The notes under the pieces are model-generated. The model saw nothing but the letters and a program-made list of their open reading frames with translations. It was not told where the DNA came from and did no database searches. From positions 1 through 64,000 of the forward strand of contig DASZFO010000064.1 in assembly GCA_035939775.1 (NCBI GenBank): 64,000 nt of DNA, read 5' to 3'. Shown here piece by piece: positions 2,407-10,074 of this stretch (positions are counted from its first letter, which is position 1; every line of letters starts with the position of its first letter). Source of the DNA: Pirellulales bacterium (GTDB taxonomy: Bacteria > Planctomycetota > Planctomycetia > Pirellulales > DATAWG01). Both the position numbers and the translations under genes were made by a program.

Positions 2407-5400
2407 TCAAATGTCCGAAGTGTCGCCGTTGAGGTCTTCCTCGGCGACGTGCCCGTCGGCCGCGAAGACGCCGGCGACGCGGTCTTCGAGTTCGCCCTCG
2501 AATTCCTCGGCCGACCAGCCGCGGCGAATGCGGCCCAAGATGATCCGCTTATGCGCCGGATCGGCCCGATGTTGGAGAACGACCGCCGGCCGTCGCACGG
2601 GAGGTTTCATCGGCTCGACGATCACGCTCGGAACAATCGGCTCACGGGCGACGATCTCCGTGGCGATCGGCAGAGCGGCCGGCGGCGCCTCGCGCCGCGG
2701 TGGCTCCGGTGCGATCGCAACGGGTGCAACGACGGGTTCCGGCTTGGGCCGGGACCGCCGTCGCTTCGGCGGTTCCGCCGGCGCGGCTTCCAACTCCGCG
2801 TGCGGCTCCGGCAACTCCGAAAGATCGGCATTGCTCGGCAAGCGGCGCACGCGAACGTCGAGCGATTTGAACATCGCGGCCAAATGCTCGTGGCAAGTGA
2901 AGACGAGGAGCTGATGCCCATCGGCGGCGAAGTCGCGGAGCACGGCGGCCGCCGCCCGCGCCCGGTCCATGTCGAAATTCACCAGCACGTCGTCGAGCAC
3001 CAGCGGCATCGAAGCCCCGCGGCGGGCATACGAGCCGACCAACGCCATCCGCAGGCTCAAGAACAACTGCTCGCGCGTGCCGCGGCTGAGCACTTCGATC
3101 GGCAAGGCGTGGCCCGTCGAATCATCCACCCGCAGCACGTCTTCGCCCAACGGCGTCCAGACGCGGCGATACCGCCCCCCGGTCATCCGGGCCAAATAGG
3201 CGGAGGCCTCGCGGAGCGTCTCGGGCTGACGGTTTCGCTCGTAATCGTTCTTGATGGATTCCAATATCATTCGTGTCGTGGCGAGCACCTGCCACCGCGA
3301 TACAGCCTCTTTCAATCGCTCTTCAATCACGCTCAACTCCAACTGTTTGCGGCCGATGCCGTGATCGTCCGCGAGCGCCCGCAACTGCTCATTAAACTGG
3401 CCGCGTTGCTCGAAGAGGCTGTTCAGTGCACGGCGAGCCGTTTGCAAGCGCTCGGCGGCGTCCGCGCGATGCTGGGGAAACTGCTGCCGAGCGGCGCCGC
3501 CAAGCAAGCCGGTCAACTCCGCGTCGGCGCAAACGCCCGCGCAGGCATCCTTCAACTCCCGGTCGAGAGCGTTGCGGCGGCGGTGCAATTGGTCGACTTG
3601 GCCGCGTTCGGCGGCGCGGCGGGCAAATTCCGCTTCGTCGCTAACTCCCGCCCAATGCAAGAGCGTCGAGCGCCGCCGCTTGAGGCGACTGAGTGTCAGC
3701 CGGTATTTCTTCCGCCCTCGCCGCAGCTTGCGAAGTCGCCGGCGGATCGAATCGCGGCGCGCGACCAGCTTCTCCTGTTCCGCTGCCTGGCGCCGCAGTT
3801 GACGAATCTGCTCGACGGGTGATGCACTGTCGGGCAACAACTCCGCGTCAACAAACAGCGGCTCGATTCGCGCGGCGAAGGCAGCCAGCTCGCGCTTCCG
3901 GCGATCGCGCTCGTCGCACGCTTCGCGCAACCGGCGCTGGGAATCGTTTGTCATCGAGCTATGGCGAATGAGTTGGCCAATCTGTTTGGGTGCGAGATTC
4001 TTCGGCAAGCCGGCGGCAATCAGTGCCGCTTGCCAGCGGCGGTGGGCCGCCTTGAGTTCATCGCGAGCTTCGGCCGCCCGCTTTTCGGCGGAGCCGGCCT
4101 CTTGCCCAGCGGTGGCGCGTTTGGCGTCGTGCGGCATCAGGTCTTCGAGCTTTGCCAGATCGGCTTCGGCCGCTTGGAGGCGCACCGTGAGATTGCCGCC
4201 CCCTTTGGGCAATTGCTCGTCGAGCGTGTCGCGCTCTTGCTGAGCTTGCTTGGTTTGGGCTTCGAGCATCGTAAGCTGCTTGCGGCACGAGTCGAGCTGC
4301 CGCGCCGCCGATTTTTCCAAGAGCCACTTCGCGGCTGCGGCCGCCCCGAAAGCGAGAATGCCCAGCACGGCGAGGGTCCCGCCGAACGAGCCGAAGATTT
4401 TCGTCGGCAAGAACAGTCCGATCACCACCAGCAGCACGCCCAGCACGAACACGCCACCGAGGCTGGCCAGAATCCACCCCGGCAGAATCTGCCGTTCGAG
4501 CAGCTCGTGGCTCTGCTCTTCCAAGTCGGCCCGATGCCGAACCATGCGATCCAGGCGGTCGTCGAGTTGCACGCGGCGGCGGAGCTGCGAGGTCAGATTG
4601 CCCGCCCTTTCGAGCGCGGCGGGCAAATCGGTCTGGCCGGCCGCGAGCAACGCTTTTTCCACGGTCTCATGGTGATCGGTCGCCTGCTCATGGAATTGAC
4701 CGACCGCCTGCTTGGCTTCGCGCGCCGCACGGCTTTTGGTCCGCAGATCGGCGGCCGGGGCGCGCAGCGCGGCAATCGCTTTATGGGAAACGCCTGCTGG
4801 CAGTTTCGCGACGCTCGAGCCCGGCGAAGCGGCGCTCTTGCCAGCCCCGGTTTCCCGTTGCTCGACTTTCGCAACGGCCGCCTCGGCGTCGCGTAGCTGT
4901 TGCTCGGCGGCGACGATCCACGACTCATTTTCCGCCAAGGCCAAAATCCGCGGAGATTGCTTCCAGAGGGGCTCGTTGACTTGGAGGCTAGCGAGCTGAT
5001 TGCGCTGCTCCTTCCATCTGCGGCCGATCCGCTTCAACATCCGGCGGCAGCCATGGAGCCGTTCTTTCAGCCGATCCATCCGCGCCAGCGCATTCGGAGG
5101 CAAACTACTCGGCGGGCCCACCGCGGCGATCTGCTCGTCGAGCGCGGCGCGGGCCTGCCACTTCGGCTCGAGCGAAGCGGCCAACTCGACGACGCGTGCT
5201 TCGCGCTCCGCTTCCGCGGCTTCGGTTTCCGCGCGGGCAATCTCCTGCGCGAGACGATCTCGATCGCCGGCCAACCGCCAATGCCGTGCCGTCAACGTGC
5301 TGAGTTCATCCAGTTCGCCTCGCAGCTTGCCGCGCTTCGCCACCAGCTCACCGATTTGCGACGGACGATCGTCGGGCGAAAGGAGCCGCATGCGCGACGA

Positions 5401-5907
5401 TTCGAGTTCGCGCATCACTTCGCCCAGCGACACGCGGTCCAAGCCGGTGGAAAGATCGTAGAGCAGTCGGGCGACCGCCGTTCCATCGAGTGTTCCAAGT
5501 TCCTGCATTTCGCCAAGGCCGACGGCAAACACATTATTGAAAACGCTCTCGTCCACGTCCGCCAGCAGGTCTCGCAACTGCGGATCGCCTTGGATCGTGC
5601 CATCGGCGGCGGCGACCGTGACCTCGCCCAACGGCACGTTCGGGCGATCGATGCGGCTCACGCGAAACCGGCCTGCCGGACTCGTGATGCCGAGCGAGCC
5701 GCTGCCACGGCCACCGTGCACCGGCGGCAGATACCGCGCTCGTCGCTCGGGCGAGAATCCATACAGCATCGCGCGCGCGAACTGCAGCAGCGTCGTCTTG
5801 CCGGCCTCGTTCGGACCGTAGAACACGTTCAATCCGGCGGAAAGCTCCTGCAATTCGAGGCCGCTCCACACGCCGAAACCGTCAATCTTCAGATCGTCGA
5901 ATTTCAT
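2407..5907 (-). CDS. YhaN/SbcC-like SMC-type ATPase with internal membrane segment
   Basis: A 1166-residue ATPase of the SMC/Rad50-like ABC class, closest in layout to YhaN. Walker A is GPNEAGKT at residues 31-38. Long Arg/Glu-rich coiled coils follow, interrupted by two hydrophobic helices (LGGVFVLGVLLVVIGLF and GTLAVLGILAFGAAAAA), a YhaN-like feature that suggests membrane anchoring. Near the C-terminus come the signature LSRGTREQLFL and Walker B PLVLDDVLVNFD, so the ATPase looks intact. A Pro/Arg-rich tail of about 150 residues ending in acidic sequence follows the ATPase. ATG at 5907 overlaps the stop of the upstream gene by one base (TGATG), so the two genes are translationally coupled. 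The family handles DNA ends or repair; the exact role here is unknown. Confidence 0.8.
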   Translation of the reverse strand: MKFDDLKIDGFGVWSGLELQELSAGLNVFYGPNEAGKTTLLQFARAMLYGFSPERRARYLPPVHGGRGSGSLGITSPAGRFRVSRIDRPNVPLGEVTVAAADGTIQGDPQLRDLLADVDESVFNNVFAVGLGEMQELGTLDGTAVARLLYDLSTGLDRVSLGEVMRELESSRMRLLSPDDRPSQIGELVAKRGKLRGELDELSTLTARHWRLAGDRDRLAQEIARAETEAAEAEREARVVELAASLEPKWQARAALDEQIAAVGPPSSLPPNALARMDRLKERLHGCRRMLKRIGRRWKEQRNQLASLQVNEPLWKQSPRILALAENESWIVAAEQQLRDAEAAVAKVEQRETGAGKSAASPGSSVAKLPAGVSHKAIAALRAPAADLRTKSRAAREAKQAVGQFHEQATDHHETVEKALLAAGQTDLPAALERAGNLTSQLRRRVQLDDRLDRMVRHRADLEEQSHELLERQILPGWILASLGGVFVLGVLLVVIGLFLPTKIFGSFGGTLAVLGILAFGAAAAAKWLLEKSAARQLDSCRKQLTMLEAQTKQAQQERDTLDEQLPKGGGNLTVRLQAAEADLAKLEDLMPHDAKRATAGQEAGSAEKRAAEARDELKAAHRRWQAALIAAGLPKNLAPKQIGQLIRHSSMTNDSQRRLREACDERDRRKRELAAFAARIEPLFVDAELLPDSASPVEQIRQLRRQAAEQEKLVARRDSIRRRLRKLRRGRKKYRLTLSRLKRRRSTLLHWAGVSDEAEFARRAAERGQVDQLHRRRNALDRELKDACAGVCADAELTGLLGGAARQQFPQHRADAAERLQTARRALNSLFEQRGQFNEQLRALADDHGIGRKQLELSVIEERLKEAVSRWQVLATTRMILESIKNDYERNRQPETLREASAYLARMTGGRYRRVWTPLGEDVLRVDDSTGHALPIEVLSRGTREQLFLSLRMALVGSYARRGASMPLVLDDVLVNFDMDRARAAAAVLRDFAADGHQLLVFTCHEHLAAMFKSLDVRVRRLPSNADLSELPEPHAELEAAPAEPPKRRRSRPKPEPVVAPVAIAPEPPRREAPPAALPIATEIVAREPIVPSVIVEPMKPPVRRPAVVLQHRADPAHKRIILGRIRRGWSAEEFEGELEDRVAGVFAADGHVAEEDLNGDTSDI

Positions 5908-7181
5908 CACGCGAGTTCCTTTGCACCGGCGTCGTCGGGACGAAGCAGCTCGGACCCCAAGAGCGCGGCCTTTCGCAAGATCGAGCGGCGCACGGCCGGC
6001 TCGACGATCGTCGCCAAACCGGCCCATGTTCCGGCCCGTTGCTTCTCCGAAAGATAGGGCTGCACGTCCAGCGGCTCGGCGTCCGAAATCTCTCGGCTCC
6101 GCACAGCCCGCAAGAACTCGCCCAGCAATGTTTCTTGCTCGAACCATTCGTCGGGCAATGCTGGCGGCTCAATTTCGATCGATAAGGTCCAGGCTGCCGG
6201 CGCACGAAAGCCGTATTCGACGCGCAAGCTCGATATCAATTCGGCCGGCAAGGCGGTCCGGCGGGCTTCCTTCAGCAGCGGCCCGTCGCCGGAGATGGTC
6301 CAATGGATTAGCAGCGTACGGTCGGGCGTCGCGGCCGTGAGCGCTTTCAATCGTTCATGGAATAGAGGGTCCAACTCGTCGCGCGACGTGCCGGCGGCGA
6401 CGATAATCCGCTCCTGATGCCATCGAACCACGTCGGTCGCCACGGGAACCAATTGAAACTGCGACGCCTCGTCAACCTTTACGAGCGTGCAGCCGTGCGG
6501 GCCGATTTGCGCGGGGCAGCGTCCTTGAGGGCTACCGGCAACGTGGGCCACGCGCTGCGGATTTGAGAGCGCGAGCGGCGTTGCGCCGTTCGCGGCGCCA
6601 CCGAGGGCCCAATAGTGCACCGAATGTGCGGCTAGCGCAGTGAAGTCCAACTCGCGCGGCACCACCGCAATCGTGAACTGGTCGTCGGCGCCCGCGGCGA
6701 ATTCGTCGAGAAACACCGCAGCGGTCTCGCCCGTTCCGTCGGAGACGGTTTCATCGAAGCTGCGACCAGAAATCTGACAAATGGGAATTCCATCGCGAGA
6801 GTGGACCAATCGCTCGACGCGGTGCCCAGAAAAAACATGCACGTTTCGCGGCCAAACCAAGCTCGGCGGCCATTGTGGACGACAATCGGTCTCGCTGGCC
6901 GCCCAGTAAACGGCGATGCCGCGCTCGGCCAGGCGCGCGAACTGCTCATACAAGAATGCCAGGCCCCGTGGGCCGGAGCGATTGGGATGCACCAGGTTGC
7001 CCGCCAGCAGAACGAAATCGACCGTTTCGGAAATCGCCAGATCGAAGACTCGCGTCGCCGCGCGGTAGGGAGCGTCGGCGAGCAATTCGGCCAGATGATC
7101 GGGAACTTCCGTCAACCCATAAGGGGGCTGTTCCAGATGAAAACCCGACGCCTGAAGAAATCGAAACGGCTTGCTCAGCAT
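5907..7181 (-). CDS. SbcD/YhaO-like metallophosphoesterase-fold protein, catalytic residues lost
   Basis: A 424-residue partner of the downstream YhaN-like ATPase, arranged like the Mre11/Rad50 and YhaO/YhaN pairs. The fold signature is clear (VDFVLLAGNLVHP, YWALGG, AGSPQGRCPAQIGPHGCTLVKVD), but the metal ligands are gone. Motif I, normally SDxHLG, is ASGFHLE at residues 11-17; motif II, normally GDLFD, is GNLVH at 61-65; the GNHD motif is ASETD at 95-99; the H before the third strand is missing in IAVVPRE; GHxH is GGAAN near residue 195. It is therefore likely catalytically dead and structural or regulatory. ATG at 7181 is chosen over an upstream TTG because GGGAGG sits 5 nt before it. Confidence 0.75.
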   Translation of the reverse strand: MLSKPFRFLQASGFHLEQPPYGLTEVPDHLAELLADAPYRAATRVFDLAISETVDFVLLAGNLVHPNRSGPRGLAFLYEQFARLAERGIAVYWAASETDCRPQWPPSLVWPRNVHVFSGHRVERLVHSRDGIPICQISGRSFDETVSDGTGETAAVFLDEFAAGADDQFTIAVVPRELDFTALAAHSVHYWALGGAANGATPLALSNPQRVAHVAGSPQGRCPAQIGPHGCTLVKVDEASQFQLVPVATDVVRWHQERIIVAAGTSRDELDPLFHERLKALTAATPDRTLLIHWTISGDGPLLKEARRTALPAELISSLRVEYGFRAPAAWTLSIEIEPPALPDEWFEQETLLGEFLRAVRSREISDAEPLDVQPYLSEKQRAGTWAGLATIVEPAVRRSILRKAALLGSELLRPDDAGAKELA

Positions 7182-7476
7182 ATACGCCTCCCTGCGCAAT
7201 GGACGATGACTGCACCGTGTCTGCAGGGAACGCCCTCCGCGGCGCTCCGGGCCGAGTGCGGCAAACGACGCAGCCGTGCCGCGACAATTGGGGAGTTTAG
7301 CGGAGCACGGGAGATCGTGCTATGCCGTTTGGGCTTGCAGATGCTAGCAGTCCGCTTGTACTGCCTTGGAGCGGCCAATTAAGATGAAGTGGTCGGTGGC
7401 TCGACAACACAATCTGCCTCGCAGCCGCACGATCATTCCTCGCTTACCCGCCAATTCCCCGATTCTCCGATCGAGC

Positions 7477-10074
7477 ATGCCTAAGTTCGCTGTAGTCTTT
7501 TGCCTAGCGGTCAGCTTTGGCGCGACGATGCTGGCAGCCAGTTCGATCTTGGCGGAAGACATGCACTATACGGCCGTCTTCACCGACGGCAACCGGATCA
7601 CGGGTGGGCATCTAACCGACTGGGCGAACAGCAATCAGCCGCGGCTCAACGGCAAGCCGCTGTTCGATCAATCCAATCAAATCCGCTGGCTCAAGAAGGA
7701 GACACCTGAGCAGGCGACGCAGCCGGCCGCGTTTGTCGAAATGTTCGGCGGCGATTGCCTGCCGGGGCGGGTGAGCGGCTGCGGCAGCAACTCGACGCTC
7801 GAAGAAGGGGAGTTGCCGGCGCATCTGATCGTCGAGCCGACGATTCCTTTGACGTTCCTCGATGGCATGCAGCCATCGTCGAGTGTGCGCGTGCTAACCC
7901 GATGGTTGCGCCGGATCGTCTGGGAGCGGCGATCGAGCGACCAATACGAGCCGGCCACGCTCTTCTTCAAGGATGGCCGGCAGCTTTCGTTTCGCGCCAT
8001 CCGGTTCAATGCCACGGGTGTCTCGGTGCTGACGGAGAGCGAGCGGCGCGAAGTGCGCTTCGCCGATCTGGCCGAATTGCACATGCCGCGGCTGGATTGG
8101 TGGGACGCCTATTTCGAACAAGTGGCGCTGCTCACGCCCGATTGCAAAGAACGCCTGACGAGATTGGAAACGCTCGACGGGCTGAAGGTCACTGCGTCGG
8201 CCGACCGCGTTCAGCCGATGTTTTGGGGCGATCCAAACAATCCCGAAAGCTGGCTCCCCTGCGTGCAACCGGCCTGGTCGCTCGATCCGCTTTGGGTTCG
8301 CTATCCGCGGGTGCTGACGCGGCGATTCTTCGGGCCGCATCAGGTGCCGCTGTCGCTCGTCGAACCGAGCGACATCAAATTGCGATCGGCCCTAGCAGCC
8401 GGCTGGCGGCCGCAGATCGATCGAAACGTGCAGGGAGGCCCACTGCAAAGTGGCGGGCAAGAAGCGGGTTGGGGTTTGGGGATGCACGCCTACACGGAGA
8501 TGCACTTCCCATTGCCGGCATGCGTCCAATCATTCCGGAGCCGCGTCGGCTTGGATCAGGTCGTCGGCAAGGGAGGCTGCGCGCGAGCGATCGTTTACGC
8601 CAACCAGGCAGAGGGCGAGCCGCTATTTCGCAGCAAACACTTGATCGGCTCCGACGAGACGGTCGACACGGGCACGTTGCCGGTGGGCGGGTCGGCCGGA
8701 GCGGAGTTGATCCTGGTCGCACATCCGGCCCACGCCGACCGTCCCGAGGGGGCCGATCCATTCGACATTCGCGACGTGGTCGATTGGCTCGAGCCGCAGG
8801 TGAATCTCGATCTCGGCTCGCTCCGCACGGAGGTTCACGACCGCTTGGATCGCTTGCTGCCGGGCTGGGACGGGTGGACTGTTGCCGGCGGCGGCAAGGA
8901 AAAGATGACCTGGCTCAGTCGCTGGGACGGCGCGAACCCTTACGATCGGCGATTTCACTTCGAGTTCCGTCCGCAAGACGCCTCGCTCACGCTCACCCGC
9001 AATCTGCAATTGGAATCCGATCAGAACTGGTTGCTGTTCTACGCCAGCCGCAATCCGGACGGCGGGCAAACCTCGCCCACCCAAATGATCGTCCGCATCG
9101 ACGGAAAGCAAGTCGGCGATTTCGACGTGCCGGCCCGCTGGGGACCGACCACGCCGCTGGCCGTGCCGGTCGATCGATTCCACAACCGTCCCATTGCGCT
9201 GGAGGTGCGATTTGTTTCGCGAGGAGACAAATCATTCGTGGATTGGCGGTCGATGGCGATCGTCGATAAGCTGCCGAGCCTGGCGGAAGTGTTCGAAGAT
9301 GCGCCCCAGCCGCCGATTCAATTGAAATCGAGCGACGGGCCGAATACGGGCGACGGACGCAGCAGCGTCGTCCCGCTCGACCGTTTCTCCGGCGACACCA
9401 GCATCAAGGTCGCCGGCGAAAAAACGCAGGTCACGCTGACGAACCTGAGTCTACCGATCCGCGAAAACCCGCGATTCGGCGAATACCGCTATATCTGCTT
9501 CGCCTGGCGAAAGAAGGGCGGGTCGCAGATTGCCGTGGATCTGGATTCTGTTCTCGGCGCCGATCTCGGCCCGCAGCGCGAAGACCGCACGCAGCTATTG
9601 AAGCAGATCAAGCGATTGAACAATTCGTTGGCACAGGGACGGAAGCAGCTCGACGCATTGCAAGCGCTGCAAAAGGAGCATACGCTCTCGCCGGCGCAAG
9701 CCGGAACGCTTCAGAACTTGGAGCAGCGCGAGCAATCGGGTCACGTCGATCTTCAGCAACTCGAGCTGGACTTGGCCGGCGGCGCGAATGCCGCGCGCGG
9801 CGGCACGACCATGCACTCGCGGTATTTCGCCGGCAATCCGCCGCAGACGCCGCCCGAGCTGCGCGCCATCCGCCTGGCAGATCGCGCGCCGGAGCAATGG
9901 ACGCTGGTCGTTCGCGATCTCTATCAGGACTTCGGCGGCGGCGAGCTGAATGGCATCACTCTCGCCAGTCCCGACGGCGACTACGCGCTTTTCGACCACA
10001 TCTATCTCGCGCGAACTCAGCAAGATTTCGAGCGTTGCCCGCGGCAAGCCCCACCAATTTCGGTCGGCAACTAA
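7477..10074 (+). CDS. Secreted NPCBM-domain protein
   Basis: An 865-residue exported protein. ATG at 7477 opens a good signal peptide (MPKFAVVFCLAVSFGATMLAA...). A middle region carries a beta-sandwich of the NPCBM type: WGLGMHAYTEMHFPLPACVQSFRSRVGLD-like sequence around residues 330-400, with the usual GSDETVDTG segment after it. NPCBM domains are carbohydrate-binding accessory modules. Toward the C-terminus there is a short predicted coiled coil (LLKQIKRLNNSLAQGRKQLD), then another beta-rich region ending near LFDHIYLARTQQDFE. No enzymatic motif was recognised. It is transcribed divergently from the SbcD-like gene with about 295 bp between the starts. Such proteins are common in planctomycetes, usually with unknown ligands. 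Confidence 0.75.
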   Translation: MPKFAVVFCLAVSFGATMLAASSILAEDMHYTAVFTDGNRITGGHLTDWANSNQPRLNGKPLFDQSNQIRWLKKETPEQATQPAAFVEMFGGDCLPGRVSGCGSNSTLEEGELPAHLIVEPTIPLTFLDGMQPSSSVRVLTRWLRRIVWERRSSDQYEPATLFFKDGRQLSFRAIRFNATGVSVLTESERREVRFADLAELHMPRLDWWDAYFEQVALLTPDCKERLTRLETLDGLKVTASADRVQPMFWGDPNNPESWLPCVQPAWSLDPLWVRYPRVLTRRFFGPHQVPLSLVEPSDIKLRSALAAGWRPQIDRNVQGGPLQSGGQEAGWGLGMHAYTEMHFPLPACVQSFRSRVGLDQVVGKGGCARAIVYANQAEGEPLFRSKHLIGSDETVDTGTLPVGGSAGAELILVAHPAHADRPEGADPFDIRDVVDWLEPQVNLDLGSLRTEVHDRLDRLLPGWDGWTVAGGGKEKMTWLSRWDGANPYDRRFHFEFRPQDASLTLTRNLQLESDQNWLLFYASRNPDGGQTSPTQMIVRIDGKQVGDFDVPARWGPTTPLAVPVDRFHNRPIALEVRFVSRGDKSFVDWRSMAIVDKLPSLAEVFEDAPQPPIQLKSSDGPNTGDGRSSVVPLDRFSGDTSIKVAGEKTQVTLTNLSLPIRENPRFGEYRYICFAWRKKGGSQIAVDLDSVLGADLGPQREDRTQLLKQIKRLNNSLAQGRKQLDALQALQKEHTLSPAQAGTLQNLEQREQSGHVDLQQLELDLAGGANAARGGTTMHSRYFAGNPPQTPPELRAIRLADRAPEQWTLVVRDLYQDFGGGELNGITLASPDGDYALFDHIYLARTQQDFERCPRQAPPISVGN

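Follow-up and report, generated by a model that had tools for sequence, protein, structure and literature searches.

The window, the whole 64,000-nucleotide stretch analyzed (positions 1 to 64,000 of Pirellulales contig DASZFO010000064.1), carries on its reverse strand a gene for an SbcD/YhaO (Mre11)-like protein and, directly downstream, a gene for a YhaN/Rad50-like ATPase (Table 1). The open reading frame (ORF), the five degenerate motif strings and the downstream ATPase described in an earlier note on this sequence are all present as quoted. The translational coupling that the note reported is also evident, as the two genes overlap by one base, the stop codon of the first sharing its A with the ATG of the ATPase gene (TGATG). 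RNA structure at this gene junction gave no signal above shuffled sequences. A pseudogene or frameshift at the locus was ruled out by the full-length ORF, the dN/dS values given below and the presence of orthologues across the order. Adjacent to the pair and divergent from it is a gene for a 902-residue NPCBM-domain protein (window positions 7366-10074, + strand), which is not a recurrent neighbor elsewhere.

Table 1. Positions of the gene pair and its sequence features within the window
Feature	Position	Strand	Remark
SbcD/YhaO (Mre11)-like protein	5907..7181	-	424 aa; dinuclear metal center lost
Motif I, ASGFHLE (residues 11-17)	7131..7151	-	Asp8 to Gly13; His10 kept as His15
Motif II, GNLVH (residues 61-65)	6987..7001	-	bridging Asp49 to Asn62
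Motif III, ASETD (residues 95-99), replaces GNHD	6885..6899	-	Asn84 to Glu97; His85 to Thr98
Motif IV, VVPRE (residues 173-177)	6651..6665	-	His173 to Pro175
Motif V, GGAAN (residues 194-198), replaces GHxH	6588..6602	-	His206 to Gly195; His208 to Ala197
Conserved motif VI, GSPQGR	6519..6536	-	retained
YhaN/Rad50-like ATPase	2407..5907	-	1166 aa
Walker A, GPNEAGKTT	5791..5817	-	intact
Predicted two-helix membrane hairpin (residues 474-532)	4312..4488	-	middle of coiled coil
ABC signature, LSRGTREQL	3064..3090	-	intact
Walker B/D-loop, LVLDDVLVNFD	2971..3003	-	intact

A Predicted Mre11 Fold That Keeps One of Eight Active-Site Residues

Family searches with the single SbcD-like sequence gave weak matches (Metallophos, E 0.048; Mre11, E 0.009). 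Its PF00149 score of 14.5 bits is under the 21.5-bit cut-off, and TIGR00619, with its curated SbcD cut-off, found no match at the locus. An AlphaFold (AF2) model built with 51 sequences had a pLDDT of 92 and a pTM of 0.89, and the Foldseek matches listed for this model were exclusively Mre11 structures from the PDB (best E 1.6e-13, probability 1.0). Because a profile built on orthologues of the window protein also matches solved Mre11 chains (E 8e-10), we consider the predicted Mre11 fold, which the earlier note had proposed, a sound assignment.

In this superfamily, as in the LpxH structure (PMC5016852), the bridging Asp of motif II serves both metals. Metal 1 is further bound by Asp and His of motif I and the second GHxH His, and metal 2 by the GNH Asn, the His of motif IV and the first GHxH His. 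The GNH His (H85) is essential in Mre11 (PMC4996933), and in the proposed Mre11 mechanism the nucleophile is activated by metal 1 (PMC5016852). Aligned to intact relatives and numbered as in Pyrococcus Mre11, the window protein has G, H, N, E, T, P, G and A at D8, H10, D49, N84, H85, H173, H206 and H208, respectively. The statement that every metal-binding motif is lost thus holds for the motifs but not for the individual residues, one of which, the motif-I His15 (H10), is kept. Misalignment of the motifs was ruled out, since these columns carry intact residues in every paralogue examined. The window protein almost certainly lacks the canonical two-metal nuclease.

An Intact Partner ATPase with a Predicted Membrane Hairpin

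The earlier note's reading of the Walker A, signature and Walker B motifs of the ATPase was accurate; the FTCHEH motif is also intact, and the protein matches PF13514 (AAA_27, YhaN-type) with 52 bits, over the cut-off. The window ATPase has no CxxC zinc hook, and in place of the hook is a hydrophobic hairpin that the earlier note overlooked. In a model of moderate quality (pLDDT 75, pTM 0.39), residues 474-532 are predicted, with moderate confidence, to form a helix-turn-helix flanked by coiled coil. The coiled coil is charged on both flanks of the hairpin, and both arms and the heads of the ATPase should therefore be cytoplasmic. Together, these features strongly predict that the coiled coil ends in a two-helix hairpin that anchors the ATPase in the inner membrane, with cytoplasmic heads.

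A hydrophobic hairpin of two segments, located midway along the coiled coil, was found in 73 of 74 partner ATPases of window-protein orthologues, in 7 of 8 hairpin-type reference ATPases (the eighth is a split ORF) and in none of the 24 partners of the intact paralogue clade described below. As it is present in Listeria YhaN too, the hairpin is probably ancestral rather than new. The Walker A, signature, Walker B and FTCHEH motifs are conserved across the partner ATPases with one clear exception, at locus L157 (G247, Planctomycetales). There, a fully degenerate orthologue is paired with an ATPase that has no hairpin and whose Walker B/D-loop is altered (DEALADSD).

Distribution of the Pair and an Intact Paralogue

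Orthologues of the window protein (best E <= 1e-30) occur in about 141 of 197 genomes of the order. In one family (f8), no match to the window protein was found among the genomes listed. The cognate ATPase lies directly downstream at nearly every locus long enough for judgment, and most exceptions are loci truncated by a contig end or by the limits of the retrieved sequence. The gene pair is core to one large planctomycete order. A scan of GTDB genomes added 80 loci from named organisms, every one a planctomycete; among them are Rhodopirellula, Stieleria, Neorhodopirellula and Mariniblastus. No conserved third gene was detected in the flanks of loci with complete pairs. At seven loci only (L086, L087, L089 and four others), a gene for a UvrD/Rep-like helicase lies directly upstream of the pair on the same strand.

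A search of the window genome for another active SbcD, as the earlier note had suggested, turned up another YhaO-like gene, on contig C238, which is fully intact and has a soluble ATPase as partner. No canonical SbcD in this genome scored over the TIGR00619 cut-off. Two other candidates were rejected: an AAA_23 match on C257 is an SMC, and a metallophosphatase on C264 is an unrelated membrane-type enzyme. The intact paralogue is present in 53 of the surveyed genomes of the order, and about 90 sampled genomes have the degenerate pair alone.

Loss of Metal 2 and Repeated Loss of Metal 1

We compared the active-site residues of 142 orthologues from the order and some genomes of the sister order. 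H206, the first GHxH His, is lost in all 142, H85 in 141 and N84 in 139, with the remaining three Asn lying within otherwise altered motifs. H173 is lost in 80 of the 142. The residues of metal 1 are mostly kept: D8 in 135/141, H10 in 123/141, D49 in 115/142 and H208 in 110/142, with the complete metal-1 quartet (D8, H10, D49 and H208) in 105 of 142. Judged from the aligned residues, the dinuclear nuclease center is broken in all 142 orthologues. The earlier note had asked whether planctomycete relatives share the losses of the window protein. Those of N84, H85 and H206 are common to essentially all 142 orthologues, a recurrence that is more than chance. The loss of every motif that the earlier note described applies to the window protein but not to most of its relatives, which have the full metal-1 site; it is a derived minority state. 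The replacements for N84 (E, R, Q, S) and for H85 (V, A, I) show no conservation, and H206 became an almost invariant Gly.

Metal-1 ligands tend to be lost together. H208 is absent in 24 of the 27 sequences without D49, compared to 8 of the 115 with D49 (Fisher 2.7e-17, uncorrected for relatedness). A tree-aware sign test using independent pairs on supported branches gave 8.5 changes in the same direction and 0 in the opposite direction (p 0.004). There was no co-loss link between D49 and H173. In a screen of all alignment columns for association with an intact quartet, H208, D49 and H10 ranked at the top, as ligands do by definition, followed by E225, E17 and G70, which do not rank by definition. 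E17, G70, E225 and H229 (window residue numbers) co-vary with metal-1 retention and may belong to the second shell. Near the motifs, W93, W104 and G195 are conserved and specific to the clade.

On a quick tree, the fewest-changes count gives at least 24 switches between presence and absence of the quartet; as many branches of this tree are weak, we refer to about 20 independent losses. The window protein (GHNETPGA at the eight positions) and its sister from the same family (DLNETPGR) form one lineage without metal 1, and both retain fewer ligands than most relatives do. These patterns are most simply explained if metal site 2 and the proton donor disappeared on the group's stem branch, and a one-metal site persisted as a unit of function that was repeatedly discarded. 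The window lineage would be one of about 20 that later lost the metal-1 site too.

Shared History and Constraint of the Two Genes

Our trees are of a quick type and include some long rows, and we do not rely on details within the window group. The window group, Listeria YhaO and seven YhaO of other planctomycete classes form one branch (SH-aLRT 100), within which the window group is monophyletic (SH-aLRT 99-100; 99 in the tree with intact references). The Listeria and other-class reference YhaO in this branch have kept all eight active-site residues. Three Planctomycetales sequences (L159, L160 and L200) that lie at the base of the window group have lost nearly all ligands. The intact paralogue of the window genome falls in a separate clade. 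As a tree of the ATPases recovers these three groups, with a branch separating each from the rest, the two genes share one history.

By a simple counting method, dN/dS was 0.12, 0.17, 0.24 and 0.38 for pairs without metal 1 and 0.02-0.13 for pairs with it. For the window protein and its sister, dN/dS was 0.26 at a dS near 2, which is close to saturation. By these estimates, the SbcD-like gene is under purifying selection, with constraint relaxed after loss of metal 1.

Discussion

We think it probable that the pair encodes a YhaO/YhaN-type (Mre11-Rad50-like) complex that acts as a membrane-tethered, ATP-gated scaffold or clamp without nuclease activity, holding or sensing DNA or another partner. 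The comparison shows that the group's ancestor lost the metal-2 ligands (N84, H206 and often H173) together with the proton donor H85. Most descendants have kept the metal-1 quartet, in which the single metal would be structural or bind a ligand, and the window lineage is among the many that then lost metal 1. The ATPase motifs have been maintained throughout, with L157 the one clear exception. The hairpin-type YhaN partner points to a membrane-anchored complex, in which the hairpin at the coiled-coil tip would anchor the ATPase in the inner membrane with its heads in the cytoplasm. The metallophosphoesterase-fold subunit would sit on these heads as a structural or regulatory base. ATP binding and hydrolysis may open and close the tethered clamp, so that DNA or another partner is held or sensed uncut.

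Retention of the metal-1 quartet in 105 of 142 orthologues, and its loss as a unit, would also fit a one-metal enzyme, in which the D8/H10/D49/H208 site hydrolyzes or binds another phosphate compound (a nucleotide, a lipid-linked compound or a second messenger) at the membrane and the window copy is a dead derivative that arose later. The activation of the nucleophile by metal 1 in the proposed Mre11 mechanism (PMC5016852), the co-variation of E225, E17 and H229 with the quartet and the membrane hairpin of the partner are all consistent with such an enzyme. However, the group is without metal 2 and the GNH His, by which homologues hold the phosphate and protonate the leaving group, and about 20 lineages dropped the site yet kept the pair, which argues that the activity of the site is not the whole function. 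We regard a one-metal enzyme as unlikely. A nuclease that survives because other residues, or the partner, supply the lost ligands is far less likely still: although the conserved W93, W104 and G195 lie near the motifs, the substitutes for N84 and H85 vary and Gly is almost invariant at the H206 position.

The window genome carries an intact YhaO/YhaN pair, and the window copy could be drifting to loss. The higher dN/dS of lineages without metal 1, and the additional ligand losses of the window protein and its sister, would be expected of such relaxed decay. This explanation is improbable, as the ORF is full length and translationally coupled, dN/dS is 0.26, the partner ATPase is fully intact and identity to orthologues reaches 50%. 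Moreover, the losses are order-wide and ancient, and the degenerate pair is the only one in about 90 sampled genomes. The local decay that the earlier note proposed to check in close relatives is thus not supported. Returning to the membrane-tethered clamp, a broader proposal is that, in Pirellulales and part of Planctomycetales, a hairpin-type YhaO/YhaN nuclease became a core ATP-driven clamp that is anchored in the membrane and dead as a nuclease, with the one-metal site an independent functional unit dropped about 20 times. For this proposal, we consider the chances evenly balanced.

Whether Mre11-Rad50 has nuclease-independent roles has long been asked, mostly by means of point mutants. 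Here, a bacterial order would offer a natural experiment: the pair is widespread, it has lost its nuclease center but not its conserved ATPase, and the metal-1 site has been kept or dropped many times independently. If our reading is true, these orthologues form a natural separation-of-function series for Mre11-Rad50, and the hairpin suggests a membrane link to DNA, or to another partner, in bacteria whose nucleoids and membranes are unusual. The set includes cultured members, such as Rhodopirellula, Stieleria, Neorhodopirellula and others, which make this testable. YhaO/YhaN and the hairpin are already known or follow from known sequences. Our search of the open-access PMC literature on inactive SbcD/YhaO or on YhaN function found nothing directly relevant, and a conserved branch that is nuclease-dead and has a separable one-metal state appears to be new with respect to that literature.

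There is precedent for conversion of an Mre11-like phosphoesterase fold into a catalytically dead scaffold in the B-subunits of eukaryotic replicative DNA polymerases (PMC4996933). Those subunits differ from the window group in having another partner and an OB domain and in lacking an SMC-like ATPase. We know of no retained one-metal state among them. SbcCD and Mre11-Rad50 share the folds of the nuclease subunit and the ATPase heads with the pair; unlike them, the window group lacks the metal-2 ligands and the catalytic His, the window protein also lacks the bridging Asp, and the hairpin replaces the zinc hook. The intact planctomycete YhaO/YhaN pair on C238 has the same family membership and operon layout, but its ligands are all intact, its ATPase has no hairpin and it belongs to a separate clade. 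Closest is the YhaO/YhaN of Bacillota, represented by a 2.9 Mb Listeria record (L179, NZ_CP030101.1) that is filed as a plasmid and is chromosome-like in appearance. It is the nearest group in our trees and has the same gene order and the same combination of an Mre11-type subunit with a Rad50-like ATPase bearing a hydrophobic two-helix hairpin, whereas Listeria YhaO has all eight active-site residues.
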